Of a stretch of 42,833 nucleotides of DNA, positions 5,370 to 42,833 are shown one piece after another. The stretch's first letter is position 1. Each line of letters begins with the position of its first letter. This DNA comes from Bacteroidaceae bacterium (lineage in GTDB: Bacteria > Bacteroidota > Bacteroidia > Bacteroidales > Bacteroidaceae): contig JAGAAS010000107.1 of NCBI GenBank assembly GCA_017615125.1, positions 1 through 42,833 on the forward strand. Direction: 5' to 3'. The translations under genes were made by a program, and so were the position numbers. The notes under the pieces are model-generated. The model was not told where the DNA came from, ran no database searches, and was given only the letters and a program-made list of their open reading frames with translations.

Positions 5370-7073
5370 CTATTCCACCTTGCGGATGAAGGCTTTGCCG
5401 GAGGCTACCAGCGCGGCGAAGTCGGTGGAGGCGTCGGGATGGGAGGGGCGCATGGGCTCGAGGACGGCTTCCAGCTCTTCCTGCTGGGCAGGGGTGAGGG
5501 CGCTCTTCAGGAGGCGTACCTTCTCGTACTGCTGGATGCCCTCCACCAGTCGTTCCCAGCGGAGGCTGGGTGCCTCGGGATAGACGAGGTAGGTGTCGCC
5601 GCCCGTCCACGTGCCGAAACGGCTGTCGGCGCAGGGGTCGGCAGGCCAGCTGCAGTAGGCCCAGCGCAGGTAGCCGTCGTAGCCCGTCGCGAGAGCGTGC
5701 CATCCGAGGAAGGCCGACTCGGCAAGGGGCGACGAGAGGAAGGTGTTGGGATGGTCGGGATTGCAGCAAGTGTAGAAGGTGGTGCGCAGGTTGTCGTCGG
5801 CACGCTGCTTGACAACTTCGGCAGGAAGGTTGGCGTGACGGTAGCCGAGACTGATGTCGTACATCATGGAGACGACCTCGGGGCTGTAGTTGACGGCGCC
5901 CTCGATGCGGTAGCCCGCGTCGGCACGACGCACGAGGTCCCAAGCGGCACGCAGCTGATCCATAGGACGCTCGTCCATAGCGATGCAGGTGCGCTCGAAC
6001 CAGCCCTTAGCCTTCAGGTGGGCAGCAAAGTCCTTGAGGAAAGGCAGCATGAGGTCTTCGTAGGCCTGCTCGCCCGGCTTGCATGCAACGTGCTTGACGC
6101 TGTTGGTGGCGCAGTCGTAGTACTCAAACTTGTAGCTCCAGGGGACGAGGGTGTAGCAGTCGATCTGCTCGGTGATGCCGCACTCCATAGCGAAGGCAAC
6201 CCAGGTGTCGAACACGGTGTAGTCGTAGCGCCACGTGCCGTCGAGCTGCTTCATCTTGGCAATCATGCTCTCGAAGGGATCGTAAGTCTGGCTGTTCCAG
6301 GGATGCTCGATGATGGAGGCGGTGATGACCTTCTCGCCAGCATCTGCCAGCCACGTGAGCAGAGGACGCATGCGGTCGAAGTGCTCCTTGCTCCACAGGG
6401 GAACGCCGAAGTAGCGCGCTACGGCATAGGGGTTCTGCCAGAGGTCGAGGTGGAAGGCCCATTCGGCAGGAGCCGGAAGGACTCTGTCCACAACCTCCAC
6501 TTTATAAGGAAGCTTATACTTCTTTCCGTCGCAGGTGACCGTTATCGTTCCCTTGTACAAGCCGGCTTCGGCATCGCGAGGGATGGAAACATTGAGCCAG
6601 ACGGGACGTACTGTCTTGGCAGACACGGAAGCCGAGGGGGAGGCATCGAGCCTGTCGGCCACGAGCAGGGAGTCCTTACGGTCGGAATAAGTATCCGTGA
6701 GCACATAGCGGACGAAATAGCGGCTCACGCAGGACGAAGGTATCGTCTTGCCTCCCTTCTTCAGGTCGCTCACTTCGACCTTCACCTCGCCGATGGCCTT
6801 GGGGGCAGCGATGACGGCTTGGGCGCAGACGTGCTCACCCTTCCATCCGTGCAGGACGGGCTCTTTGGCGAACTCGGGCCATTGGCATTGGCGGTAGCGC
6901 ACGTCGACAGAGCCCCAGCCCACCTTCGTCGTCTTCTGCGACAGCCAGCCCGACTGATCGCCGGGATGAGGGTCGGCAGGCTCCGCATTGCTTACTTGCC
7001 CGCTGACAGACAGGATTCCCGTCAGGCAGAGAGCCCCTAAAATCACACTGATTCGTTTCATCGTCGTCTTCAT
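5370..7073 (-). CDS. GH123-like (DUF4091) N-acetylgalactosaminidase-type glycosidase
   Basis: A 567-residue secreted enzyme whose signal peptide ends near residue 26 (LTGILSVSGQ). An N-terminal beta-sandwich (about 50-200, with RDAEAGLYKGTITVT) is followed by a catalytic barrel of the DUF4091 type (about 205-520). The adjacent Asp367-Glu368 in CIAMDERP matches the Asp-Glu pair used for substrate-assisted catalysis in GH123 beta-N-acetylgalactosaminidases. The motifs YDGYLRWAYCSW and GGDTYLVYP are also typical. The likely substrates are GalNAc-containing glycans such as those of glycoproteins or glycolipids. It is the last gene of the run that starts with the VTC gene, 68 bp after the Cthe_2159-type lipoprotein, so it may be co-transcribed with it. 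The codon-1 ATG was chosen because the signal peptide follows it; Met5 is also possible. Confidence 0.75.
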   Translation of the reverse strand: MKTTMKRISVILGALCLTGILSVSGQVSNAEPADPHPGDQSGWLSQKTTKVGWGSVDVRYRQCQWPEFAKEPVLHGWKGEHVCAQAVIAAPKAIGEVKVEVSDLKKGGKTIPSSCVSRYFVRYVLTDTYSDRKDSLLVADRLDASPSASVSAKTVRPVWLNVSIPRDAEAGLYKGTITVTCDGKKYKLPYKVEVVDRVLPAPAEWAFHLDLWQNPYAVARYFGVPLWSKEHFDRMRPLLTWLADAGEKVITASIIEHPWNSQTYDPFESMIAKMKQLDGTWRYDYTVFDTWVAFAMECGITEQIDCYTLVPWSYKFEYYDCATNSVKHVACKPGEQAYEDLMLPFLKDFAAHLKAKGWFERTCIAMDERPMDQLRAAWDLVRRADAGYRIEGAVNYSPEVVSMMYDISLGYRHANLPAEVVKQRADDNLRTTFYTCCNPDHPNTFLSSPLAESAFLGWHALATGYDGYLRWAYCSWPADPCADSRFGTWTGGDTYLVYPEAPSLRWERLVEGIQQYEKVRLLKSALTPAQQEELEAVLEPMRPSHPDASTDFAALVASGKAFIRKVE

Positions 7074-8974: not shown

Positions 8975-10713
8975 GGAGTTATCTTTATTTTTTCAACCAT
9001 CCAGCCTGCCGTGTGATTGACAGAAACGGCCGACACGCTCGTCTTCTCTGCGCTGAAGGCATGCAAGGCTCCTCCGTCGAGCGTCAGGGAGCCTTCGGTG
9101 TGCACAGCATTGTCGACAGCCCGCGCGCGCACGAATCCTCCTTTTATCTGTATGTCGCTGTCGCCGTTGATGCCGCGGGCACGCGAGCGTTCACCTGACT
9201 CCGTGTGGTCGCCTCCTTCGGCAACAACCGTCACATCGCCGCTTGTCATACTGATGACTCCGCCGTTGTTGATGCCTTTGGCTCCGTTGCCCGTTGCCTT
9301 CAGCTGAAGGGTGGCTCCGCTGATGGTCAGCGCGCCCTTGCTGCGCACGCAGGCAGAAGACTTCATGTCCTCCTCCGTAGCATCGTAGATGGGTGTTCCC
9401 TGCGCGAAGGCTACAGCTTTTCCTCCCGCGAACGACATATCGCCGTCGGACTCTATCGCCTTCGAGCCCTTGCCCGAGACGGTAGCCTGGACGATGCCGC
9501 CCGTCTGCGTGTATTTTCCTATGGACTTGATGGCCATACCCTTGTCGCCGGAAGTCGTCACCTTAACGAGCCCTCCATTCATGCGGATATCGGGAACGAT
9601 GCCCGTCTCGGTTCCTTCAAAGGATGTCGTAATTCCTTCGTCAACGGACTGGACGATGAGCTTGCCAGCGTTTATCTCCACATAGCCCTTACCTACGTCT
9701 ACACCGTCATCGGCAGACTGAACAGTAACGGTTCCGCCATTCATGAGGAAATAGTCGTTGACGCTGATGCCGTCCTTGTTCGACGTAGTGATGTTGATGA
9801 CTGGGTTATGGCTCCCGCCTCGCACGCGAACATAGTCGTCGCTGGCTATCCCGTGCCCGTAGTTGGCATTCACGTTGAGCGTGCCTGTTCCCGAGAAGAT
9901 GAACTGTCCCTCGCTGAACACGACGCCTTTCATCGACTCACCGGCAGGAGGCTCGGCGTACGTTGTCCCGTCGGCAAGCGTGTTGACGGTTCCGGCAGGA
10001 AGCTCTATGTAAAGCGTCTTTCCGCCGAACTCGGTGCCTGAAACCGTCGTCTTCGGGAAGATGAGGGCGCCTCCATCGGCATTCGTGATGGAGACGTTGT
10101 TGAGGGTGATGCGGCTTTTCTTTGCAGCATAGAGCTTGAAGGAGCCGTCGGTGGTGCTACCCGTGAGGATGAAGCGGACCTTCTTCATAGCGTATGCAAC
10201 GACGTCGGAAGATGTGCCCGAGGCAACGACAACGACGGTGTTCTTGAGCGACGTGGGATTATAGGTGAAGGAAGCTGTCGTCCCGCTATAGGTAACCGTC
10301 ACGGTGCCCTTCGCCTCCTCGTCGTCGATGAAGTTCTCGATGAAGTCGCCGTAGTCGTTGGTTGCCGTCTCGACGGTTGTGACTTTTTCCTTAATAAAGG
10401 AATAGGATGTGTCGTCCGAAGGGTCTATGGCAACGTCGAAGTCGGTGACGTAGCTCTGAAGCTCGACTTTGTCCGGCTCCTCAAACTGGATACAGTCGAC
10501 GAACGAGACAGGATAGGTAACCTTGATGCCGTCGGTGGTATTCAGGAAGAGGTGCGAGGCGTCGGCATCGAAGGTGATATGCGCGATAGACTCTATCTCG
10601 TAGGACTGTGCCGTGCCGTCGGTGCACAACACATAAACGGTAGTAGCGTCTTCCGCTTTAGCAGAGAAGAACAAGACTGCCGAAAGGATCAACAATGTAA
10701 TCCGTTTCATCAT
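8971..10713 (-). CDS. Cthe_2159-type beta-helix protein, secreted
   Basis: A 580-residue exported protein (signal MKRITLLILSAVLFFSAKAED after a double Met). Residues about 25-85 form a small domain (VYVLCTDGTAQSYEIESIAHITF, in two parts) that also occurs in the gene just upstream. Residues about 130-575 are the Cthe_2159-type repeat body, with TLYIELPAGTVNTLADG, GIASDDYVRVRGG and GTVTVQSADDGVDVG. It overlaps the upstream gene by ATGA and the downstream paralogue by TTGA, so the three are very likely translationally coupled. It has neither a lipobox nor a recognisable T9SS tail, so its final location is uncertain. The role is probably extracellular polymer binding, by family resemblance only. 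Confidence 0.75.
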   Translation of the reverse strand: MMKRITLLILSAVLFFSAKAEDATTVYVLCTDGTAQSYEIESIAHITFDADASHLFLNTTDGIKVTYPVSFVDCIQFEEPDKVELQSYVTDFDVAIDPSDDTSYSFIKEKVTTVETATNDYGDFIENFIDDEEAKGTVTVTYSGTTASFTYNPTSLKNTVVVVASGTSSDVVAYAMKKVRFILTGSTTDGSFKLYAAKKSRITLNNVSITNADGGALIFPKTTVSGTEFGGKTLYIELPAGTVNTLADGTTYAEPPAGESMKGVVFSEGQFIFSGTGTLNVNANYGHGIASDDYVRVRGGSHNPVINITTSNKDGISVNDYFLMNGGTVTVQSADDGVDVGKGYVEINAGKLIVQSVDEGITTSFEGTETGIVPDIRMNGGLVKVTTSGDKGMAIKSIGKYTQTGGIVQATVSGKGSKAIESDGDMSFAGGKAVAFAQGTPIYDATEEDMKSSACVRSKGALTISGATLQLKATGNGAKGINNGGVISMTSGDVTVVAEGGDHTESGERSRARGINGDSDIQIKGGFVRARAVDNAVHTEGSLTLDGGALHAFSAEKTSVSAVSVNHTAGWMVEKIKITP

Positions 10714-21095: not shown

Positions 21096-21165
21096 GATTT
21101 TTTTCTTTCTTCATACGGCGAGATTCCTTCTCGAAAAAATTTTTTCCCTTCTCGAAAAATTTTTA
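21096..21165 (-). repeat. Dispersed A-tract intergenic repeat, copy B (inverted)
   Basis: On the minus strand it contains CGAGAAGGGAAAAAATTTTT, CGAGAAGGAATCTCGCCGTA and TATGAAGAAAG. This copy fills much of the 303-bp gap between the C10 protease and VWA genes. A GAGAAG-CC-CTTCTC palindrome lies beside it at 21074-21087. I see no clear promoter in the gap. Confidence 0.7.
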
Positions 21166-30773: not shown

Positions 30774-33194
30774 TTAGAATTTCAGTCCGTAGCTGAGGGT
30801 TGGTATGATGGGGAACAGCGTCACCTGCTTGAGTGTGGTGTCCCAGGTGTCGGTGCTCGAGTTGTAGTTTTCGTCGGTGTAGATGAGGAAGGGGTTCATG
30901 TTGTTGTAGGCGTTGTAGACGCTGATGTTGAACGTCCCCTCCACGCGCTTGGTGAGCATGCGGTGCCAGTTGAGGCTGAGGTCGAGGCGGTGGTAGGGGT
31001 TCAGGCGGAAGTTGTTGCGCTCGGGCGCATACCCCACGGTGGTCTGCCAGCCGTCCTCGTTGGGTGCCGCGAGGAAGTACTGCGTGTAGACGGTGCCGCA
31101 GTTGCCTGTGGCGTACACCCACGTGACGCTCGCGTCGAAGTGGTCGGAGAACTTGTAGTTACCCGTGATGTCCACCTCGTGACGGCGGTCATACTTGGCG
31201 TTGAAGGGCTTGCCGTTGTTGAGCACCATCCCCTCGCGGTCGAAGAGCCTGCGTGTGCGGCTCCACGTGTATGCCACCCATCCGTTGAGTCTGCCTACGG
31301 AGCGCTGTGCCATCAGCTCCACGCCGTAGCTCCAGCCGCGTCCCATCGCCACCTTGTCCTGCCAGTCGGTGCTGCCCGTCATGAAGCTCACGCCCTCGCG
31401 GTACTCCAGCAGGTTGTCGGAGTACTTGTAGTAGCCCTCGAGGCTCAGGTCGCAGATGTCGCTGAGGGTGTAGAAGGCTCCCAGCCCCACCTGGTGCGAC
31501 TTCTCGGGCAGGATTTTCTCCGTCACGGGCACCCACAGGTCGGTAGGCAGCGAGAGGCTGTTGTTCGACAGCAGGTGCACGTACTGGCTCATGTAGGCGT
31601 AGCCGGCCTTCAGCGAGAAGTTGTCGGCAAGCAGGGCACGCCCGCTCACGCGCGGCTCGGGCGAGAAGTAGCTCCGTCCTCCCACGTGGAAGAACGAGCC
31701 GCTGAAGCCGGCGTTCACCTTCACGACGTCGCCCAGCGTCATGTTGTCCTCGATGTACACCTGTGCCTCGTGGGCGTCGATCTCGTCCTGTCCCGAGCGC
31801 TGGTAGTACTTTTCGTCGGCAGCCTCCTCATCGGCCGTCTTCTCCTGCTTGTATCGCATCGAGAGGGTGGCCACGTCGGGGCGGAACAGATGATGGGTGT
31901 AGAACGAGCCGAAGCGCACCTCGTGCAGAGGCGTGGGGTTCCAGTGGAAGTCGGCGCGCGCCGTCTCGTCGAAGATGCCCGACTTCATGGTCACCTCCAT
32001 GTGCTGCGTGTACTTGTCCTGCTTGTTGATCTCCTCCAGCTGGATGCCCATGTTGTGGCGGTACTGCGTGTAGTTGGCGCTGATGTCCATGAAGAGCTGG
32101 CTGTTGACGACGTGGTTCCACCGTGCGGCGCCCACCATGTTGCCCCACTTCCAGTTGAACTTCTGCTTGGCGGTGTAGTACTGCTTCTCCTGCTCGCGCA
32201 TCCTGAAGTATATCTTGTCGTCGCCGTTGTACCAGCTCACGTACAGACGGTCCCTGTCGCTGAACTTATGGTTGAGCTTCACGTTCAGGTCGTCGAAGTA
32301 GTATCCCACCATCGCGCCGTTGAGCTCTATCTCCTTGTCGAAGAGGTCGGCGCCCCAGAGGGCGGTGTTCAGCAGGATGTCGCTGTAGGTACGTCGTGCG
32401 CTCACGTTGAGCGACGTCTTACCCTTCACGATGGGTCCCTCGATGTTGATCTTCGACGACACCAGTCCCAGCGCGGCGTTGCCGTGCCAGTTGTACATGT
32501 CGCCGTCCTTCATGCGTATGTCCACCACGCTCGAGAGCCTGCCGCAGTAGTGAGCGGGGAAGCTACCCTTGTAGAGGGTGACGTTCTTGATGGCGTCGGG
32601 GTTGAACACGCTGAAGAGCCCGAACATGTGGTTCACGTTATACACGGGCACGCCGTCGAGCAGCAGCAGGTTCTCGTCGGGAGCTCCTCCGCGCACGTAG
32701 AGCCCGGCCGTACCCTCGGCACCGTTCATCACGCCCGGCAGCAGCTGCAGCGCCTTCAGCACGTCCGTCTCGCCGAACATCGCCGGCACGGCCTTGATCT
32801 GCTCCACGGGGATGTCGATGGCGCTCATCTGCGAGCCCTCCACGCCCAGGTCCAGGCGGTTGCCGATGATCTCCACCTCTTCCAGCTCGGCCAGCGGCAT
32901 CAACGGCAGCGCCAGCACCGTGTCGCGGTGCAGCACGAAACGGTCGTTGCGCGTCTTATAGCCCACATAGCGTGTCGTCAGCTCCACCTCGCCGGCAGGC
33001 AGCGTCAGCGAATAGAAGCCATAGGCATTCGTCACCGTACCCAGCCCCGACTGGAGGTCCAGCACGGTAGCGCTAATCAGCGTCTCGTCGCTCACGGCAT
33101 CCGTCACATAGCCGCTCACCGTGAACGTCTTCTGTGCCGACGCACCCAAGCTCAGGAAGCTCATTATCAACAAAAACAGAGTCTTTTTCATCAT
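30774..33194 (-). CDS. TonB-dependent receptor with carboxypeptidase-like N-terminal domain
   Basis: An 806-residue outer-membrane receptor. A signal peptide (LIMSFLSLGASAQ) is followed by a carboxypeptidase-regulatory-like domain at about 22-110 (TFTVSGYVTDAVSDETLISA). The plug is at about 125-230 (TAGLYVRGGAPDENLLLLDG, then VPVYNVNHMFGLFSVFN), and a 22-strand-type barrel ends in an aromatic strand (PTLSYGLKF). It imports a ligand with energy from TonB. With DUF4249 and a dipeptidyl peptidase downstream, peptides are a likely ligand, but this is inference. The promoter at 33225-33256 lies just upstream, with two further promoter-like units behind it. Confidence 0.92.
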   Translation of the reverse strand: MMKKTLFLLIMSFLSLGASAQKTFTVSGYVTDAVSDETLISATVLDLQSGLGTVTNAYGFYSLTLPAGEVELTTRYVGYKTRNDRFVLHRDTVLALPLMPLAELEEVEIIGNRLDLGVEGSQMSAIDIPVEQIKAVPAMFGETDVLKALQLLPGVMNGAEGTAGLYVRGGAPDENLLLLDGVPVYNVNHMFGLFSVFNPDAIKNVTLYKGSFPAHYCGRLSSVVDIRMKDGDMYNWHGNAALGLVSSKINIEGPIVKGKTSLNVSARRTYSDILLNTALWGADLFDKEIELNGAMVGYYFDDLNVKLNHKFSDRDRLYVSWYNGDDKIYFRMREQEKQYYTAKQKFNWKWGNMVGAARWNHVVNSQLFMDISANYTQYRHNMGIQLEEINKQDKYTQHMEVTMKSGIFDETARADFHWNPTPLHEVRFGSFYTHHLFRPDVATLSMRYKQEKTADEEAADEKYYQRSGQDEIDAHEAQVYIEDNMTLGDVVKVNAGFSGSFFHVGGRSYFSPEPRVSGRALLADNFSLKAGYAYMSQYVHLLSNNSLSLPTDLWVPVTEKILPEKSHQVGLGAFYTLSDICDLSLEGYYKYSDNLLEYREGVSFMTGSTDWQDKVAMGRGWSYGVELMAQRSVGRLNGWVAYTWSRTRRLFDREGMVLNNGKPFNAKYDRRHEVDITGNYKFSDHFDASVTWVYATGNCGTVYTQYFLAAPNEDGWQTTVGYAPERNNFRLNPYHRLDLSLNWHRMLTKRVEGTFNISVYNAYNNMNPFLIYTDENYNSSTDTWDTTLKQVTLFPIIPTLSYGLKF

Positions 33195-33224: not shown

Positions 33225-33256
33225 CAAAGATAGGGTGAGCCGAGCGAAAAGTCAAA
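33225..33256 (-). promoter_or_regulatory. Proximal promoter of the TonB receptor operon
   Basis: Minus strand: TTTG (33253-33256), 20-nt spacer containing TTTTCGCTCGGCT, TATCTTTG (33225-33232). The predicted start near 33219 gives a leader of about 25 nt. Confidence 0.8.
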
Positions 33257-33301
33257 TTTATTTGAACTTTTCCGAGGCGATCCCTATCTAAAACCGAAGG
33301 T

Positions 33302-33417
33302 TAAAGGTACGAATAAGCGAGCGAAATGCAAAAGGAAAACTCGTTTTTCTTTTCTTTTCCGAGCGCAAGTACCTTAGAGCGCAGCTCAAAGGTACTGCAA
33401 GCCGAGCGAAAGCCAAA
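33302..33417 (-). repeat. Two extra promoter-like units upstream of the TonB operon
   Basis: Unit B has TTTG (33329-33332), 19 nt, TACCTTTA (33302-33309). Unit C has TTTG (33414-33417), 19 nt, TACCTTTG (33387-33394), a full consensus. Unit C sits against a palindrome, GTACCTT/AAGGTAC, around 33369-33395. With the proximal promoter, the -7 boxes are 77 and 85 bp apart. The same unit family recurs at 40251-40757 and 42214-42331. Confidence 0.7.
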
Positions 33418-34839: not shown

Positions 34840-37800
34840 TTATGGTGTTTCGTTGATCTGCGATTTTGGTTTCCGCCCTTCGTTGCCGAGAATGGCAGGG
34901 GCAAGCTCTTTTAATGGATCAATGACCTTGACATCGTCCTTAATGATTTTCTTTTTGAGGAACAGGGACGGGAGTCGGTTGCCAGTTACCATTTCTATGC
35001 CGGTGTCACCTGCATCGATGCGATTAAAGCCTGTCGACGAGGGCTCGTTGCCGAGGATGATGTTCACTAACTTGGTGACGTCGCTCACGTTGACGTCGCT
35101 ATCGCCATTCACGTCAGCATTGCTTGCACCTTCGGTTCTTGTCGGGACAGGGTTGCCGAGGATGATGCTCACAAGCGTTGTGACATCGCTGACGTTGACG
35201 TCGCCATCGCCGTTGATGTCGCCTATCATCGTCACCTCTGTGGGCACGTCGTACAACTCGAGGTAGGCTTCAGTACCCTTGATAGTTGTTGGGTCGTCGG
35301 TAATGGAGAGTTTGTTGTCGGCTCCCAGTTGGAGGAAAATGTTCGTCTCCCCCTTGCGGTCCTGTGCGAGAGGATTGTAGGTGCCCTTGAAGGCCATTGC
35401 GCCAGAGATGCTGTCGAGTTCGAACTTGATGCCAGCGGGGATAGAGCGGCTGATGGTCACCTGGCTGAACGAGGGGTTGACGATGTCGGCTCCTGTCGTC
35501 TCCCACTTCACCAGATACGACTTGTCGGCGCTGATGGCGGTAGTGTCACTGAAGGTGAGCGTCAACGCACCGTTGTGCAGCGAAGCTTCCGTTAAGGTTT
35601 TCAGTGTGCATCCTGCAAGGGGGCTGCTGCCTATCTGTTCTTCAGAGAGGCCGAAGGGCAGGCTGAGCATGTTCCACGAGCCGTCCTTGCGAAGTGAGCG
35701 TCCTTCCACAACCACGTCAAGGGTCTTCTCATTGAACTCTATCAGTTTGGATGAGTTGTCTCCGTCGGCATAGAGGTGGAGTACCCCAAGCTCAAGGTTG
35801 GGCATGAGGTAGGTGGGCGAGAAGATGCTGCCCTCCGAGAGGTCCACCAGATAGTTGCCGTCAGCATCCTGCTGCAGGGCGTCGCCTTGTGTGGGATAGC
35901 CTTGGAAGAAGGTGCAATAGTTCACGCTGCTTATCCGCTTGCCGTTAGGCACGTCGAAGACGACGGGAACCGTCTGTCCCCAGCCACCTATCAACTCGCC
36001 ATTCCAGACGATGCCGTTCTCGTAGGCTGTCAGCCCACTGACATCGTAGGTGGTGCTTGCTCCGGGTCGATGGGGCGTAAGACTCTTGTCGAGGCTCTGG
36101 ATTTGTATTCCTAAGACAACCCCTTCCTCTATATTAGTGCTCGAACAGAAGTAGGCGTTAACGCCAGGGAAGGCACCATTGCCATTAGAGCTGTAGTAGA
36201 AGTTCAAGCCGGAATAGTTTGGATTGTAGCCTAGGTGGATACCCATGCCCAGACAGTCCTTGACGGTTTGTTTCGACTTGTCGTCGCACCAGCCCATGAT
36301 GTCGGCTCCATAGGGATAGTTATCCTGGTTTGCTGCGTCCAGTTCCAGCTTACCGCGGAACAGGCATCCCGTGACTGTGTTGTTGCAACTTTTCCCATGC
36401 CCAACGATTCCTCCCACAATGCTGTTGCTGTACAGGCTGGCATCGACGAGGCAGTTGGTGATGGTGTTATCACCCTTGCCGTTCACGCATTCACCCACGA
36501 TGCCGCCCGTGTGGCGGTTGCCTGTGATGCTGCCGCTCACGTGCAGGTTCTTGATAGTGGCTCCTCCGATGGCTTTGAAAGGAGCCGCAAACTCGCCGCC
36601 GCTCAGCTCACAGGTAATCGTATGTCCGTTGCCGTCGAAGATACCGCTGAAGGGCTGGCTGGAGCTTCCTATCATCGTTGTAACCTTGATGTCGGCCATA
36701 AGCTGTGCATGGATGCCTGTCGTACCAGCCTCAACGAACTCACCCATTACATCCCACATGGCGGGGGTATAGATCTGTATGGGACAATCCTCGGTGCCGA
36801 GGTCTCCCACGTAGGTGGCATTGACCCTAAATGCTTCTATCCGCTCGCGTTCGTCGTTGGGCCATTTCTCCTTCCAGGCTTCCACAGTCTGGGGCAGCAC
36901 GTGGAAGCGGGTTTGCTGATCGGGCAAGAAGATATCGTGTCTCTCAGCCCATGAAGCGAATGGCTCTGTACCATAGTAATAAAGGTCTTCCAGTTTGTCA
37001 AGTCCTTTGAACATGTTTTCTGCGCTAGTAATTGTAAAGGGAAGCGACAGCTTTTTCAGGTTTGAACAGTTCTTGAAGAGCCCAAACGTGCTGGCATTTC
37101 TTTTGATGACAAACTTCTCAAGCCCCAGTGTCTCCAGGCTTGAGCAGTTATAGAACATGCCCGAGAAATCGGTCACGTTCTGGGTTTGGAACTGGCTTAC
37201 TTCAAGTGAGGTAAGGTTCGTGCAGTCCTCGAACATGCTTGTCAGCTGCGTGGCACTACTGGTGTCAAAGTTGCTGAGGTCAAGGCTCGTGAGGCCCGTG
37301 CAGCCGTTGAACATATACATGAAACTCTCGCACTTCGCAGTGTTGAAGTTGCTAAAGTCGAAGTCGTCGGAGGTCAGCTTCTTGCACCCGTCGAACATGC
37401 CGAACATGCAGATGACCTCGTCGGTGTTCAGGTTCTTCCAGCCCTCAAAGGTCTCGAGATTTTCACATCCCATAAACCACTTGGCTGTAGTCACGGGGTG
37501 GTAGTAGTAAAACGAGGGTGAGAACGCCACATGGGCTATTTCCTTCGAGTGATCCTCGGGGTCGTCGGAGCTCATGGGATACCCGCCGCCCGTATTGTCG
37601 GTCCACCCTGGGAACTGGTCGGGCTTCTCGGGGTCTTTCCCGTTCAGGTCGAATGTTCTCTCGCCCCTGTTGATGCGTGCCTCACGGCGTCCGTCGTAAT
37701 AGAAGGCCAGCGTGCTGTCGGCAGGGGTGAAGACGGCGTAAGCCTCTGACTTGGTGTCGGTAATCGAGCGGATGTTCAGCCTGCCGAAATAGCTCCATCC

Positions 37801-40059
37801 GTCTGCGGACTTCCATCCTATCTCGGGATTGGTGAAGTTGGCGTTGTAGTAGGCATCCTCTTGGTCGTCGGCAACCCACAGCATCACGTTGTCGGTGGTG
37901 TAGGTGTTGATGTCCCCGATGCCCTGCTTGTGGAAGCAGAACACGTCGTTGTACTCCCATGTAGGAGGTGTCATGGCGCGGCAGGTGACCGACTGCAGAT
38001 TGGGCAGGTCGATGAAGGCGCCTGTGCCGATGGTCTTCAGCGTGCTAGGCAGGTCCACCTCAAGCAGGTTGCGGCAGCCATAGAAGGCGAAGTCGCCGAT
38101 GCGCTCCACCCCCTCAGGAAGGGTGACGTGGGTGAGCTCCGTACACATGCGGAAGGCCATATCATTGACGCCACCGACGGGATATACTTGCCCGTCGAGC
38201 TCCACGGTGGCAGGCACTACTACCTTGCCAGGGAAGTACTGCGAGGTGCAGGCGTTGTATCCGCTCCCGAGAATGGCAACCGTGTTGCCTTGTGCATTCT
38301 TCCGCAGCACAAATTCTGCATCCACCTCGCTGTTCAGGGTTAACCAGAGCATGCGGAACGTAAGGTCCACCTTGCCTTTATAGATTTTCTCTACATCGCC
38401 CAGAGTCCTTGCTTCGGGATGAACGGGTGCTTTGGCCAGATTGTTTATGGCGGTAACCATCTCCAGTCCCATGAGGAACTCTATGGCGGAGTTTACGTGT
38501 CCCAGAGGCACGGCTGGGTCGCACTTCTCAGCCCAGTCGCCAAAGGCGTTGCCGGCTGACACACGGTTTGACGTGGGAACCACATCGTCGTAGTAGCTGT
38601 GGTAGAGGCGGAGCGGGTGCTCGGGATTCCAGCCTTTGGTGAGGTCATTGTACGAGAGAGCATGCTGCAGGTCTTCCATCACACCCCGTTGTGTGGGCTT
38701 GGGCGGGTCAACGGCATAGATTCTGTAGTCCCATCCCCAGAATGTCTGCCAGCCAGGCTGGCTCAGGGGGTCGATGGAGTAACTATTGGGAATGTCATCG
38801 TCGTTGTCGTCAAGCACATTAAGGAAGTAGCTATACGCATCGGCCGTCATCATGCGGTCCATGTAGGCTGCCCCGTCTTTCTCCACCACATTGGCGTAGT
38901 AGCTCGATTGCTCGCGCAGCTTGTTCCACGCTTCCTTCACGTCGCCGGTCGAGTAGTCCTTACTGGTGAGCCAGTCGAGGATACCTGTATCGAGGAAGGG
39001 CTCGCTCAGGTAGTCGCTCACCTGGTGGTTGCGCATGTAGGGATTGCTGTCGCACATACCCTTCAAGATGAGGGGCATCACCACGGCCATGTCCATTGTC
39101 TCATTTTTACGGGCACGGTCCATGTAGAACATGATGGTCGACATAGGATTGTAGGGGCCCGCCCCGCACAGCGAGCCTGAGAAGTTCAGCTCGTCGACGA
39201 GGTGGTTCTGCTCGATGAAGCGGTGCACAGCCATCGCCGTGCCGCCGCCCTGCGAGTAGCCGATGCTGAACGAGCGCCACCCATCGCGGAACTTGTGGCG
39301 CACCTCCTTCACCTTGTCCGATGTCTTGTAGAGCTCGATGCCGTAGCGCACGCCGTCGACAGTCTGTCGTGCCGTGATCTCCTCCGAGAGATACGGATGA
39401 GGCACATTCTTTGTCACGCCGTAACCCTCGCAGTCGGGAATGATGACGAGGTTGTAGTAAGGCATCTCGTCCTGTCCAGATGAGAAAACGACGCCGCTGC
39501 TGGCACGGAGCATGAAGAAGTCGGTGTCGTTGGTGTCGGTGATTTTGTTATGGCTGTTCATCGACGGGCACTCACGGTTGGCCGTGATGGTTGCATGGCA
39601 GCCGATGATGACGTTGTTCACATAGTCGCAGTCGTCGTCGGGCATGCAGGCGAGGGCACTCAGGATGATGGGCTCGCCCTTGGCGTTGATGGAGGGGTAC
39701 TTGAATACAAACCACCACATGTCCCACCACCAGTTGGAGTCCTTGTCGTAGAAGTCGCTGCCAGAGGCAGCAGCCTTGCGGCGGCGCGATGCCATACGCT
39801 TCTTGGCGGTGCCCTTCTCGGTGTTCCAGTCAATGCTCTCCACCTTGGCGATGGTGTCGGCGGTCATCGTCAGCGAGTCCACGACGACCTCATCCTTCAC
39901 CGTCATCGTCAGGTGTCCGAACTCGGTAATCTCTGCATCCTTGATGTCCACCTTCGGAGGGTACATGTTAATGTCTTCCTGTGCCCAAGCGTTACCCATG
40001 CCTGCCGTGAGGGCAACCACCAACAGGAGGAGAGTTTTAAGAACCCTAGTCTTTTTCAT
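34840..40059 (-). CDS. Giant secreted protein: alpha/beta-hydrolase, BspA-type repeats, GLUG-like repeats, dockerin
   Basis: A 1739-residue protein with a signal peptide (LLLVVALTAGMGNAWAQ). Residues about 110-545 form an alpha/beta-hydrolase of the secretory-lipase type, with Ser269 (SIGYSQGGG), Asp491 or Asp492 (YHSYYDDVVPTSN) and His521 (PLGHVNSAIEF). About 615-700 is an LRR_5/BspA-like repeat (GVERIGDFAFYGCRNLLEVD). About 860-1030 carries DUF285-type repeats (MFNGCTGLTSLDLSNFDTSS, MFEDCTNLTSLEVSQF). About 1110-1245 has GLUG-like steps (HTGGIVGECVNGKGDNTITN). About 1612-1670 is a pair of dockerin EF-hand repeats (GDINGDGDVNVSDVTTLVSI, ADVNGDSDVNVSDVTKLVNI). The last 60 residues are basic and unlike the usual tails. 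It is probably a surface esterase or lipase with binding repeats; the substrate is unknown. The leader is about 185 nt and the promoter is at 40251-40281. Confidence 0.8.
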   Translation of the reverse strand: MKKTRVLKTLLLLVVALTAGMGNAWAQEDINMYPPKVDIKDAEITEFGHLTMTVKDEVVVDSLTMTADTIAKVESIDWNTEKGTAKKRMASRRRKAAASGSDFYDKDSNWWWDMWWFVFKYPSINAKGEPIILSALACMPDDDCDYVNNVIIGCHATITANRECPSMNSHNKITDTNDTDFFMLRASSGVVFSSGQDEMPYYNLVIIPDCEGYGVTKNVPHPYLSEEITARQTVDGVRYGIELYKTSDKVKEVRHKFRDGWRSFSIGYSQGGGTAMAVHRFIEQNHLVDELNFSGSLCGAGPYNPMSTIMFYMDRARKNETMDMAVVMPLILKGMCDSNPYMRNHQVSDYLSEPFLDTGILDWLTSKDYSTGDVKEAWNKLREQSSYYANVVEKDGAAYMDRMMTADAYSYFLNVLDDNDDDIPNSYSIDPLSQPGWQTFWGWDYRIYAVDPPKPTQRGVMEDLQHALSYNDLTKGWNPEHPLRLYHSYYDDVVPTSNRVSAGNAFGDWAEKCDPAVPLGHVNSAIEFLMGLEMVTAINNLAKAPVHPEARTLGDVEKIYKGKVDLTFRMLWLTLNSEVDAEFVLRKNAQGNTVAILGSGYNACTSQYFPGKVVVPATVELDGQVYPVGGVNDMAFRMCTELTHVTLPEGVERIGDFAFYGCRNLLEVDLPSTLKTIGTGAFIDLPNLQSVTCRAMTPPTWEYNDVFCFHKQGIGDINTYTTDNVMLWVADDQEDAYYNANFTNPEIGWKSADGWSYFGRLNIRSITDTKSEAYAVFTPADSTLAFYYDGRREARINRGERTFDLNGKDPEKPDQFPGWTDNTGGGYPMSSDDPEDHSKEIAHVAFSPSFYYYHPVTTAKWFMGCENLETFEGWKNLNTDEVICMFGMFDGCKKLTSDDFDFSNFNTAKCESFMYMFNGCTGLTSLDLSNFDTSSATQLTSMFEDCTNLTSLEVSQFQTQNVTDFSGMFYNCSSLETLGLEKFVIKRNASTFGLFKNCSNLKKLSLPFTITSAENMFKGLDKLEDLYYYGTEPFASWAERHDIFLPDQQTRFHVLPQTVEAWKEKWPNDERERIEAFRVNATYVGDLGTEDCPIQIYTPAMWDVMGEFVEAGTTGIHAQLMADIKVTTMIGSSSQPFSGIFDGNGHTITCELSGGEFAAPFKAIGGATIKNLHVSGSITGNRHTGGIVGECVNGKGDNTITNCLVDASLYSNSIVGGIVGHGKSCNNTVTGCLFRGKLELDAANQDNYPYGADIMGWCDDKSKQTVKDCLGMGIHLGYNPNYSGLNFYYSSNGNGAFPGVNAYFCSSTNIEEGVVLGIQIQSLDKSLTPHRPGASTTYDVSGLTAYENGIVWNGELIGGWGQTVPVVFDVPNGKRISSVNYCTFFQGYPTQGDALQQDADGNYLVDLSEGSIFSPTYLMPNLELGVLHLYADGDNSSKLIEFNEKTLDVVVEGRSLRKDGSWNMLSLPFGLSEEQIGSSPLAGCTLKTLTEASLHNGALTLTFSDTTAISADKSYLVKWETTGADIVNPSFSQVTISRSIPAGIKFELDSISGAMAFKGTYNPLAQDRKGETNIFLQLGADNKLSITDDPTTIKGTEAYLELYDVPTEVTMIGDINGDGDVNVSDVTTLVSIILGNPVPTRTEGASNADVNGDSDVNVSDVTKLVNIILGNEPSSTGFNRIDAGDTGIEMVTGNRLPSLFLKKKIIKDDVKVIDPLKELAPAILGNEGRKPKSQINETP

Positions 40060-40250: not shown

Positions 40251-40281
40251 CAAAGATACGAATAAGTGAGCGAAATGCAAA
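40251..40281 (-). promoter_or_regulatory. Active-type promoter of the giant gene
   Basis: Minus strand: TTTG (40278-40281), 19-nt spacer CATTTCGCTCACTTATTCG, TATCTTTG (40251-40258) followed by C. It is the gene-proximal unit of the tandem array at 40251-40757 and the only one there with TTTG in the -7 box. Confidence 0.8.
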
Positions 40282-40757
40282 AGAAAAACCCGTTTTTCTT
40301 AATTTCCGAGCGAAAGTATCTTAAACCTCAGGTTAAAGATACGATTAAGCGAGCGAAATGCAAAAGGAAAACTCGTTTTTTTAATTTCCGAGCGAAAGTA
40401 TCTTAAACCTCAGGTTAAAGATACGATTAAGCGAGCAAAATGCAAAAGGAAAACTCGTTTTTTTTAATTTCCGAGCGAAAGTATCTTAAACCTCAGGTTA
40501 AAGATACGATTAAGCGAGCGAAATGCAAAAGGAAAACTTGTTTTTCTTTTTCATTCCCGAGCGAGAGTATCTTAAACCGTAGGTTAAAGGTACAATTAAG
40601 CGTGCGAAATACAAAAGGAAAACTTGTTTTTCTTTTCACTTGAACATCATTCTTCCTCTGTCGCGACTCGGAAGTGAAGAAAAAGCGTGCATTTTCTCTC
40701 TTCTCTCGCTGCTCCATCGGTTCCGAGCGGGAGTATCTTAAACTTCAGGTTAAAGAT
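40251..40757 (-). repeat. Tandem array of about 83-bp promoter units
   Basis: The -7 boxes lie at 40251, 40334, 40416, 40499 and 40585, so periods are 83, 82, 83 and 86 bp. A partial unit lies at 40750, two periods further on. The five complete units have TTTG exactly 19 nt from the -7 box, with the spacer motif TTTCGCTCGCTTAATCG or close variants. The four distal ones read TATCTTTA or TACCTTTA. Between units lies a 25-bp near-palindrome, TATCTTAAACCT-C-AGGTTAAAGATA. The units are non-coding. Confidence 0.8.
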
Positions 40758-41312
40758 ACGATTTTCTCTCGAGAATAAAAAAAAGGAGAACGGTGGTTTT
40801 TTCGCGTTTGATGCGTTGCGCGTTGCATTTGTTATTTTTTGGGACAAATACAGCAAAACTCGTTATTTTGAGAAAAAAAAGATGACAATGGAAGATTACA
40901 ATTTATAAGTAATAGAATTTAATTATATATTATAATTTTTTATAATATATAATTAGCATTTACACTCACTATACTCCGTATCTAGTGTGCGTTTCAAACC
41001 TTCAAAATGAAACGTGCAACAAATGCAACGCACGCAACGGATTTTCCTGAAAAAGTTGAGCTCTGCTCTTCCTCCGTCGCGATTGACCTTCGGTCTTCCT
41101 CCTCCTTGCAAGGCATAGACTAAGCTAGCTTGGCTCTGCGCTTGCTGCGAGCGTCGGTTCGGGAAAGATGAAACATGCATCGCCTGCTTCTCTTTCCTCT
41201 CGCTGCTCCGTCGGCTGACATCTTTCTCCTCTTTAGATTATGCTAGGAGAACCGATGGAGCAGTGAGAGCAACATGATGCTTGCATCGATGCTGCCGAGT
41301 CGCGAAAGAGGA
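40655..41312. repeat. Dispersed two-part repeat in the gene-free stretch
   Basis: Part one, CTTCCTCTGTCGCGACTCGG, and part two, CTCTCGCTGCTCCATCGGTT, occur together at about 40658-40728. They recur with a longer interval at about 41068-41216 (CTTCCTCCGTCGCGATTG; CTCTCGCTGCTCCGTCGG). They recur inverted at about 41247-41312 (ACCGATGGAGCAGTGAGAG; GAGTCGCGAAAGAGGAAG). A fourth, degenerate pair lies at about 41848-41902. The first copy interrupts the tandem promoter array. No gene is seen in 40772-41483. Confidence 0.5.
40810..41041. repeat. Concentric nested inverted repeats with a 15-bp AT palindrome at the core
   Basis: The outer arms are GCGTTGC-GCGTTGCATTTGTT (about 40813-40834) and AACAAATGCAACGC-AC-GCAACG (about 41019-41041). 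The middle arms are CGTTATTTTGAG (about 40861-40872) and TTCAAAATGAAACG (about 41001-41014). The core is a perfect palindrome, AATTATATATTATAA (40921-40935), TTTT, TTATAATATATAATT (40940-40954). All centres fall near 40930-40938. The design matches the element at 121-287. A DUF4248 gene follows at 41484. Confidence 0.65.
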
Positions 41313-41329
41313 AGAGCATAGATATATGC

Positions 41330-41401
41330 TCAAAAAAATTTTTTCGAGAAGGGAAAAATTTTTTTTCTTTCTTCATCCGGCGAGATGTAGAAAGAAAAAT
41401 C
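41330..41401 (+). repeat. Dispersed A-tract intergenic repeat, copy D
   Basis: It contains TCGAGAAGGGAAAAATTTTT, then CTTTCTTCATCCGGCGAGAT and GTAGAAAGAAAAATC. It matches copy A closely over its first half. The stretch after it, 41402-41483, is a CCCCTCCC-rich run that also lacks a gene. Confidence 0.65.
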
Positions 41402-42213: not shown

Positions 42214-42331
42214 TTTGTTTTCCGCTCGGCTTGCACTACCTTTAACCTGCGATTTAAGGTAGGCTGCGCCTCGGGAGAAAAAAAATAAACGCGTGTTTAT
42301 TTTGTTTTCCGCTCGGCTTGCACTACCTTTG
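42214..42331 (+). promoter_or_regulatory. Duplicated promoter unit for the LamG-like gene
   Basis: Proximal unit: TTTG (42301-42304), 19 nt, TACCTTTG (42324-42331). Distal unit 87 bp upstream: TTTG (42214-42217), 19 nt, TACCTTTA (42237-42244). Both spacers read TTTTCCGCTCGGCTTGCAC. A palindrome-like TACCTTTAA/TTTAAGGTA pair follows the distal unit. The leader from the proximal unit is about 36 nt. Confidence 0.8.
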
Positions 42332-42372: not shown

Positions 42373-42833
42373 ATGAAACGATATCTGCTTCTCATCACCG
42401 CTGCGCTGCTGACAGCACTCAGCACCTCGTCGCAAACACTGCGCCTGCACTACGACCTCAGCAAGGCGAGCGTGGGCGACACGTCCATTGCCGACGCCAC
42501 CGGGCACTACGGCAACGCCACGCTGCAGGGACACGCCACCGTTGCTACCTTTAAAAAGGAGACGGTGGTGCGCTCGAGCATCGACGGCTGGATAGACATG
42601 GGCGAGAGCGTGGGCGCACTCATCGCCCAGCTGGGCGACTGCACGTTTGCCGTGAGGCTCTACATCTCCTCATCGGCGAACCTGGGCAATCCGGGCCACG
42701 AGATCTGCACCTTCGCGCACGACGCACAGCCGGCACGCACGAAGAAGGGCTACCTATGTCTGAGCGCACGCGACAGCGGCTGGCACCTCACCACGGGCGA
42801 CAGCGACGACGAGCAGGCGGTGGGCAGCGACCC
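42373..42833 (+). CDS. Secreted LamG-like protein, partial (runs off the window)
   Basis: The first 153 codons of an open frame. A signal peptide (MKRYLLLITAALLTALSTSS) is followed by LRLHYDLSKASVGDTSIADA, then GHYGNATLQG and DMGESVGALIAQLGDCTFAV. This is the beginning of a laminin-G/concanavalin-like jelly roll as found in front of many Bacteroidota glycoside hydrolases and carbohydrate-binding proteins. The frame is still open at the last base, so the catalytic part, if any, is outside the window. The promoter pair just upstream supports this start. Confidence 0.75.
   Translation, partial: MKRYLLLITAALLTALSTSSQTLRLHYDLSKASVGDTSIADATGHYGNATLQGHATVATFKKETVVRSSIDGWIDMGESVGALIAQLGDCTFAVRLYISSSANLGNPGHEICTFAHDAQPARTKKGYLCLSARDSGWHLTTGDSDDEQAVGSD

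Follow-up and report, generated by a model that had tools for sequence, protein, structure and literature searches.

The REP and BIME elements, which go with RAYT transposases, are short palindromic repeats found in clusters. In Neisseria, the Correia repeat enclosed elements (CREE) are dispersed inverted repeats, short and without coding capacity, from which an adjacent gene can obtain a promoter and whose positions vary among strains, traits that they share with the units described below; they have neisserial end sequences and a TA target, and the passages of the CREE account that deal with promoters give these as sigma-70 type, present in a minority of copies and formed jointly with native sequence, with 18 and 15 potential promoters and with 76 CREE 5' of genes in FA1090 (PMC2649163). 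The BrickBuilt miniature inverted-repeat transposable element (MITE) of Porphyromonas gingivalis, from the same order as the genome studied here, is similarly described in the relevant passages as intergenic, containing tandem repeats and endowed with promoter activity (PMC4596501), and the PINSR of Prevotella intermedia and nigrescens is presented as a dispersed, intergenic, non-coding repeat, again of related bacteria (PMC4755523, in part). Promoters recognised by the Bacteroidetes factor sigma-ABfr are characterised, in the part of the account devoted to them, by TTTG near -33 and TAnnTTTG at -7 (PMC7366714). Here we describe a tandem array of sequences of this promoter type at 40251-40757 of a 42,833-nt stretch of DNA from a Bacteroidaceae bacterium (the window, which is the whole of contig C74 in the draft genome GCA_017615125.1, of 3.03 Mb, 107 contigs and 87% completeness). 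The array lies upstream of a minus-strand gene for a giant 1739-aa surface protein (34840-40059). Judging from its sequence, we read the array as a MITE-like inverted-repeat unit, dispersed, non-coding and equipped with a promoter, that has been amplified in tandem at this place and of which the last copy would drive the gene, and we put the probability of this reading at roughly 0.56.

An array of promoter units before a giant gene

A tandem array with a period of 83 bp and 91% matches was detected by Tandem Repeats Finder at 40252-40634, and on the minus strand between 40251 and 40615 there are five TTTG-N19-TAnCTTT promoters at a spacing of about 83 bp. This bears out the original prediction, made from the letters of this stretch, of units of about 83 bp, five of them complete with a TTTG placed 19 nt from a -7 box. 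The gene-proximal promoter (40251-40281), which is the last unit of the array and is also recovered by the genome pattern search, reads TTTG-N19-TATCTTTG. Three internal promoters located by the same search read TTTG-N19-TATCTTTA, at 40334-40364 and 40499-40529 with 0 mismatches and at 40416-40446 with one change in the spacer, and the most distal complete promoter (40585-40615) reads TTTG-N19-TACCTTTA with a diverged spacer. The proximal box ends in TTTG and the other four in TTTA. A sixth -7-like box, TATCTTTA, is found at 40751-40758, where no -33 box is visible. Two units have the same spacer, CATTTCGCTCGCTTAATCG; a third departs from it by one change and the remaining two by two or three, which agrees with the spacer conservation that had been predicted. 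When up to 3 mismatches are allowed, the 31-mer promoter pattern occurs at 13 places in the genome relative to 0 for the reversed control, so the pattern of the array is not a matter of chance. Counts of TTTG-N-TAnnTTTG in a 424-kb sample are 24 for N=19 and 13 for N=20, with 1-5 for each of the other spacings from 14 to 25.

The units are joined by a palindrome, TATCTTTAACCTGAGGTTTAAGATA, with one T/T mismatch. At 40317-40341 it brings together the right end of one unit and the left end of the next, and it recurs at the array junctions 40399-40423, 40482-40506, 40568-40592 (diverged) and 40734-40758, the most distal, which contains the sixth -7-like box. A 43-mer across the palindrome has, besides the reference copy, copies that are 100, 100, 86 and 93% identical. 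A 25-bp palindrome had been proposed as the link between units. The palindrome is real and does recur at the junctions, but it is not a separate linker: because the left arm of a unit is complementary to the unit's own right-end -7 box, the palindrome is simply the meeting of two units' ends. Within the proximal unit, a central inverted repeat (hairpin B, 40273-40306, its structure type taken from the unit alignment) folds weakly, has the -33 TTTG within its right arm on the minus strand and is flanked on both sides by CTC cores. Hairpin B of the most distal unit holds a different dispersed repeat of ~70 bp (40651-40723), identified by blastn; when the genome is searched with the array, 12 of the 45 matches (the array itself included) are confined to about query positions 58-152, which is this other repeat. 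An array on contig C83 has a similar insert at the same relative position.

Unit structure, dispersal and the last base of the -7 box

An alignment of 19 distinct units from this genome defines the unit as an imperfect inverted repeat that begins directly after one -7 box (TAnCTTT) and has the next box as its end. It opens with a small palindrome, in many cases RACC-NNN-GGTY, after which come the left arm AnnTA and a CTCGG-like core. A central inverted repeat follows, whose right arm holds the -33 box, and then a CTCG-like core; the right arm that closes the unit is in most cases a full TTTG...TAnnTTT promoter. All but one of 142 units measure 72-94 bp, the exception being 149 bp, and the lengths are bimodal, with 29 units at 72-78 bp, 112 at 81-94 bp, none at 79-80 bp and peaks at 75 and 84-85 bp. 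These peaks are about one helical turn apart and may reflect two founder lengths or a spacing constraint. In the units of this genome the left arm is complementary to the unit's own right-end -7 box in 19/19 at each of five positions, and its fit at the variable position is 19/19 for its own box as against 16/19 for the upstream -7 box; helix 2 is paired in 100% of cells. Among 66 matches from relatives, which were found with and aligned to the model built from these units and so favour its structure, the left arm pairs with its own right-end box in 320/330 cells relative to 269/322 for the upstream box, and 96.2% of cells are paired across the unit structure. Covariation is extensive, as 17 of 20 pairs are changed on both sides, a number reached in 0 of 500 shuffles, with 5 to 7 for slid controls. 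The inner junction palindrome pairs locally and also covaries, its first pair being A-U in 29, G-C in 29 and C-G in 3 of the 66. A search of the window against Rfam at gathering thresholds gave no match and, with the promoter forming its right arm, the last unit lies outside that promoter's transcript; on these grounds an RNA element was rejected. Strong covariation in DNA that, in the last unit, lies upstream of the promoter's own transcript is a warning against taking covariation as proof of RNA.

For the promoter content of the units we used an anchored set of 114, in which pairing at -7 positions 1-5 is given by construction since the 28 of 142 units without 5/5 arm pairs were set aside. 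Within this set 94 units match TTTG-N18-22-TAnnTTT(A/G). The spacing of a sigma-ABfr promoter is thus found in the proximal unit of the array, in the genomic peak at 19-20 nt and in these 94 units. The left arm does not amount to a second promoter, given that the two bases completing a reverse TAnnTTT are AA in only 2/114 units, both of them rows of one overlapping divergent site. Units possess terminal inverted repeats, as MITEs do. TAnCTTT directly flanks the units and yet belongs to both the promoter and the inverted repeat; as this flanking sequence is in addition complementary to the arm of the unit, we did not adopt the reading of a transposon that duplicates its target in the ordinary way.

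Covariance-model searching of this genome, for which 150 of 1893 first-look candidates were scored, gave 93 matches at E ≤ 0.1. After removal of 14 with E ≥ 0.002 and of 2 antisense rows, 77 matches remained in 56 clusters, 40 of them single-unit and 16 tandem, so that the units also have the shortness, lack of coding capacity and many dispersed copies expected of MITEs. The clusters stand before genes and point at them. Among the 55 clusters examined for their surroundings, 49 have an open reading frame (ORF) of ≥100 aa starting within 300 nt downstream, at a median distance of 30 nt, as opposed to 22/55 on the other side; for the array, the distance from the terminal -7 box to the start codon of the giant gene is 191 nt. 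Two of the six clusters that have no such ORF precede a tRNA-Leu and the RNase P RNA, another two lie close to the end of a contig (C53, C101) and the last two (C49, C67) are unexplained. Units are thus dispersed, in part tandem and placed before genes, which supports the suggestion that the array consists of amplified promoter-bearing elements; a random placement away from genes, which would have refuted it, is not what is seen. No ORF of ≥100 aa starts within reach of the units at locus L030 1657-1800 (C49) and at L140 18490 onward (C101). The DNA downstream of the L030 units has no Rfam match, both downstream stretches contain CGACTTGGGA, and they may be a small RNA or leader. A hairpin repeat rich in CCCTCCTTTTGGGAGGGG is seen at the upstream edge of two further arrays, at L047 ~5573-5640 (C91) and L060 ~9541-9610 (C32), in the same placement.

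The last base of the -7 box differs between terminal and upstream positions. The terminal box ends in G in 52/55 clusters, the other three being at a contig end, in an overlapping row at a divergent site and degenerate, respectively. The 76 upstream boxes end in A in 55 cases, in G in 20 and in T in one. Hence the claim that only the gene-proximal copy has a consensus -7 box describes this array correctly and, across the genome, holds as a strong tendency rather than as a rule. Base 8 of the box pairs inside the small junction hairpin, mostly as A-U or G-C, and its place in the junction palindrome is probably why the internal boxes mostly end in A. The TTTA of the distal copies follows at least in part from how the unit is built and marks a unit junction, and a final A of this origin probably weakens the internal boxes as promoters. 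According to two alignments of related genomes, the G/A difference sits exactly at the point where a unit is gained or lost. The same arrangement as in the window, with internal TATCTTTA boxes and a last TATCTTTG box, is observed at locus L255 of another genome; at L250 and L257 TTTG is kept at the internal boxes, and some internal boxes of other genomes read TACCGTTG, TACCGTTC or TAACGTTG.

The unit family is widespread in the bacterial family and present in some other bacteria of the order. Model matches at E ≤ 0.01 are found in 124 of 201 sampled genomes of the family, this one included, and in 20 of 30 genera; at E ≤ 1e-5 they are found in 11 of 149 sampled genomes of the order, this one and 10 others. 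Since the model comes from one genome and the filters are strict, these counts are likely lower bounds. Nine loci from the order scan were read, and five (L250, L253, L255, L256, L257) have the clear plan with different arms, three (L251, L252, L258) have it in part and one (L254) is cut short. Units of two genera share 59 identical consecutive nt before unlike downstream DNA.

Two further clusters are present in the window. A two-unit cluster at 33225-33394 on the minus strand lies 30 nt upstream of an ORF (30774-33194, minus strand) with similarity, below the curated cut-off, to TonB-linked outer membrane proteins, and a third cluster at 42237-42331 on the plus strand lies 41 nt upstream of an ORF (42373-42831, plus strand) that runs off the contig and has no Pfam match. 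The giant protein itself, known from the ORF list and its domain matches, has DUF285, leucine-rich repeats of the BspA type and, at residues 1613-1668, a C-terminal type I dockerin, which may indicate anchoring in a system resembling a cellulosome. Hairpins that recur in the form CTTCTCGAAAAAATTTTTTC are seen at 41329-41400 and 21126-21164 and also near units at L020, L034 and L093. The 507-bp array gave no match at E ≤ 0.01 by blastn among 50,697 phage and 72,556 plasmid records, and its carriage by phage or plasmid was rejected on that basis.

Turnover at orthologous promoters and competing explanations

Unit number varies at some orthologous promoters, and others lack units. In two related genomes, G148 and G089, seven orthologous unit loci could be paired (from the loci in hand, with the short matches of L204 to L186 and L184 excluded), three of which have equal unit numbers and four of which differ. 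At two of the differing loci the alignments, as we read them, put the difference of a single unit on the gene-proximal side, with its boundary precisely after TAnCTTT and before the final G. One of these two, an ABC-transporter promoter, has the same two unit types in swapped order in G148 and G089, which suggests the growth and shrinkage of a longer array. At the same promoter G120 and G176 have both flanks conserved, one promoter and no match at E ≤ 1, and no match is found in the genome of the window (G000), in G030, in G053 or in G206, of which the contig extends only ~126 bp upstream. The ABC-transporter promoter is thus a case of presence and absence at an orthologous site, as is typical of MITEs, which may have come about by gain or by loss. 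A second gene has units and the same leader in G148, G120, G089 and G176, no match in G204, G000 and G030, and weak matches in G072 (E 0.03) and G053 (E 0.16). The DNA upstream of the RNase P RNA was compared at 16 loci within the genus, of which 5 have a match at E ≤ 0.01 (G000, G030, G105, G190, G162) and 11 have none, a count that excludes L158 of the 17 loci for its short flank as well as the fragments L159 and L160. For the giant gene, the 1641-bp gene start gave, besides itself, only matches of 28-77 bp among 19 genomes of the genus, so that no orthologue with its array was found there for a comparison of copy number.

If the array is a local amplification of a dispersed unit, units would reach new genes, and because each ends in its own -33/-7 the recipient gene would stay expressed. 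Further copies would then arise by duplication or by recombination between units, with the final G of the -7 box staying on the gene side and most of the upstream boxes taking the A that opens the junction palindrome. The gene-proximal unit would be the working sigma-ABfr-type promoter of the giant gene, and the distal copies would be weakened promoters rather than dedicated decoys. On this account 9 to 11 of the 42 consensus promoters in 424 kb, roughly a fifth to a quarter, would belong to a repeat family that varies between relatives, and promoter strength could evolve via copy number and replacement, besides point changes.

Several observations weigh against this account. Two array units fold weakly as single-stranded DNA (z -0.42 and +1.45, folded without their right-end -7 box), and on that evidence a strong cruciform in the array was rejected; a unit 2 kb from the array folds strongly (z -3.35). 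Twenty clusters of this genome have an upstream flank that is free of a CTCG-like core, and a TTTG at 18-22 nt is present in 3, a TTG in 3 and neither in 14, so few first units come after an ordinary promoter; the three flanks with TTTG are those of C8 and C51, which are identical, and C30, and in other genomes the first units at L111 and L250 also come after an ordinary promoter without a CTCG core. The swapped order at the ABC-transporter locus fits tandem recombination as well as insertion, and three of the four differing G148/G089 loci are in stretches of 86-89% identity, for which reason we claim no recent events; exchange with other lineages can explain these differences. No clean pair of filled and empty sites was found, other DNA also differs at the ABC-transporter locus, and the single promoters of G120 and G176 resemble a unit's right half (AAATAAATTTG..), so that what looks like an empty site may be what is left of a unit. 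The compared genomes are mostly drafts, with several matches at contig ends. Finally, no mobilising enzyme was identified in a search that covered the Y1 transposase only: PF01797 has no match in G000 (87% complete), G148, G089, G120 or G030, and it has matches in 7 of 19 genomes of the genus.

A more far-reaching reading, which we hold to be possible and rather unlikely, sees in the units a class of small mobile DNA that targets the -7 box of housekeeping promoters. Insertion would occur just behind TAnnTTT and the inserted end would provide a fresh -33/-7, such that the element makes good the disruption that it causes, the gene stays on and the new -7 box becomes the next landing site; arrays would then grow gene-ward, in one direction only. 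Because the arms change in sequence while their pairing is kept, recognition would be by hairpin shape together with the CTCG core. Such a class would provide promoters across much of a bacterial order with a gain-and-loss layer of regulation.

Somewhat more doubtful is a purely local origin, in which ordinary promoters would turn into inverted-tandem arrays by replication template switching and slippage, the arms being kept by template switching without any mobile element. Small tandem inversion duplications leave a sequence, its imperfect inverse and the sequence again, and the succession of promoter, imperfect inverse and promoter in the units looks like the trace of such an event. Ahead of the first box, the DNA is more like the terminal promoter of the same cluster than like those of others (score 6.9, relative to 4.7 across clusters; 0 of 2000 permutations), the window array has middle units that are tandem copies of near identity, and few first units come after an unrelated promoter. 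Passages of two accounts further report that template switching creates and repairs stems (PMC8794818) and that it homogenises inverted-repeat arms and inverts spacers (PMC8604942). However, the inverted arm is not an exact inverse of the promoter, as it has a CTCGG core on the same strand and lacks, in all but 2/114 units, the AA that would complete a reverse -7 box. These deviations are common to several genera, so most left arms look inherited, and near-identical units in different genera precede unlike DNA.

We consider it improbable that the array is regulatory, with repeated cores or spacers binding a regulator or polymerase and the distal copies controlling how strongly the gene is expressed, either as decoys or by cooperative binding. 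A CTCG-like core is indeed present in both halves of the unit, the length peaks at 75 and 84-85 bp correspond to about 7 and 8 helical turns, and a CTCG-like core is found in the spacer of 11 of the 42 consensus promoters in the 424-kb sample as against 5.7% of shuffled spacers, with two of the 11 looking accidental. However, core-to-core distances (126 of 142 units) have a resultant of 0.23 at 10.5 bp, and helical phasing of the cores was rejected for want of a clear signal despite the bimodal unit length. Single units make up 40/56 clusters, and unit number is variable at some orthologous genes, both of which speak against a regulatory array. An insulated promoter module, in which the junction hairpin stops incoming transcription and the unit then restarts it, is the least credible explanation: several G148/G089 junction hairpins do have GC-rich stems followed by TTTT or TTTA (e.g. 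ATCCCCTTCGGGGGCTTTTAG) that look terminator-like by eye, but the stem in the window is only AACC/GGTT, and by the usual -7 geometry the start of an internal promoter should fall inside the stem, so its own transcripts would not be stopped.

Comparison with described elements

Searches of open-licence full-text literature, as judged by titles, starts of abstracts and passages, gave no description of such units. The passages on sigma-ABfr promoters mention neither inverted repeats nor tandem arrays (PMC7366714), unlike what is seen here. PINSR differs, according to the passages on it, in measuring 188 bp, in being stated to lack terminal inverted repeats, in having been found in one Prevotella clade and in that no promoter is mentioned (PMC4755523); the units, with inverted ends and 72-94 bp in 141 of 142 cases, are set apart from it by this description. 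BrickBuilt, as far as its passages go, has 23-nt internal repeats between a leader and a tail, and promoters in both directions that were tested in E. coli (PMC4596501). In contrast, each unit here is itself one promoter and lacks a reverse -7 box. With REP/BIME elements the units have in common that they are clustered short palindromes, and they differ in that they carry promoters; mobilisation of the REP/RAYT kind was rejected since PF01797 has no match in this genome. Relative to CREE, compared by description, the units differ in that 94/114 have a whole -33/-7, in that tandem arrays share -7 boxes and in that the arms vary with their pairing kept. Without claiming membership of any named family, we suggest by analogy that these units would work in the manner of MITEs that supply promoters, the Correia element being an example.
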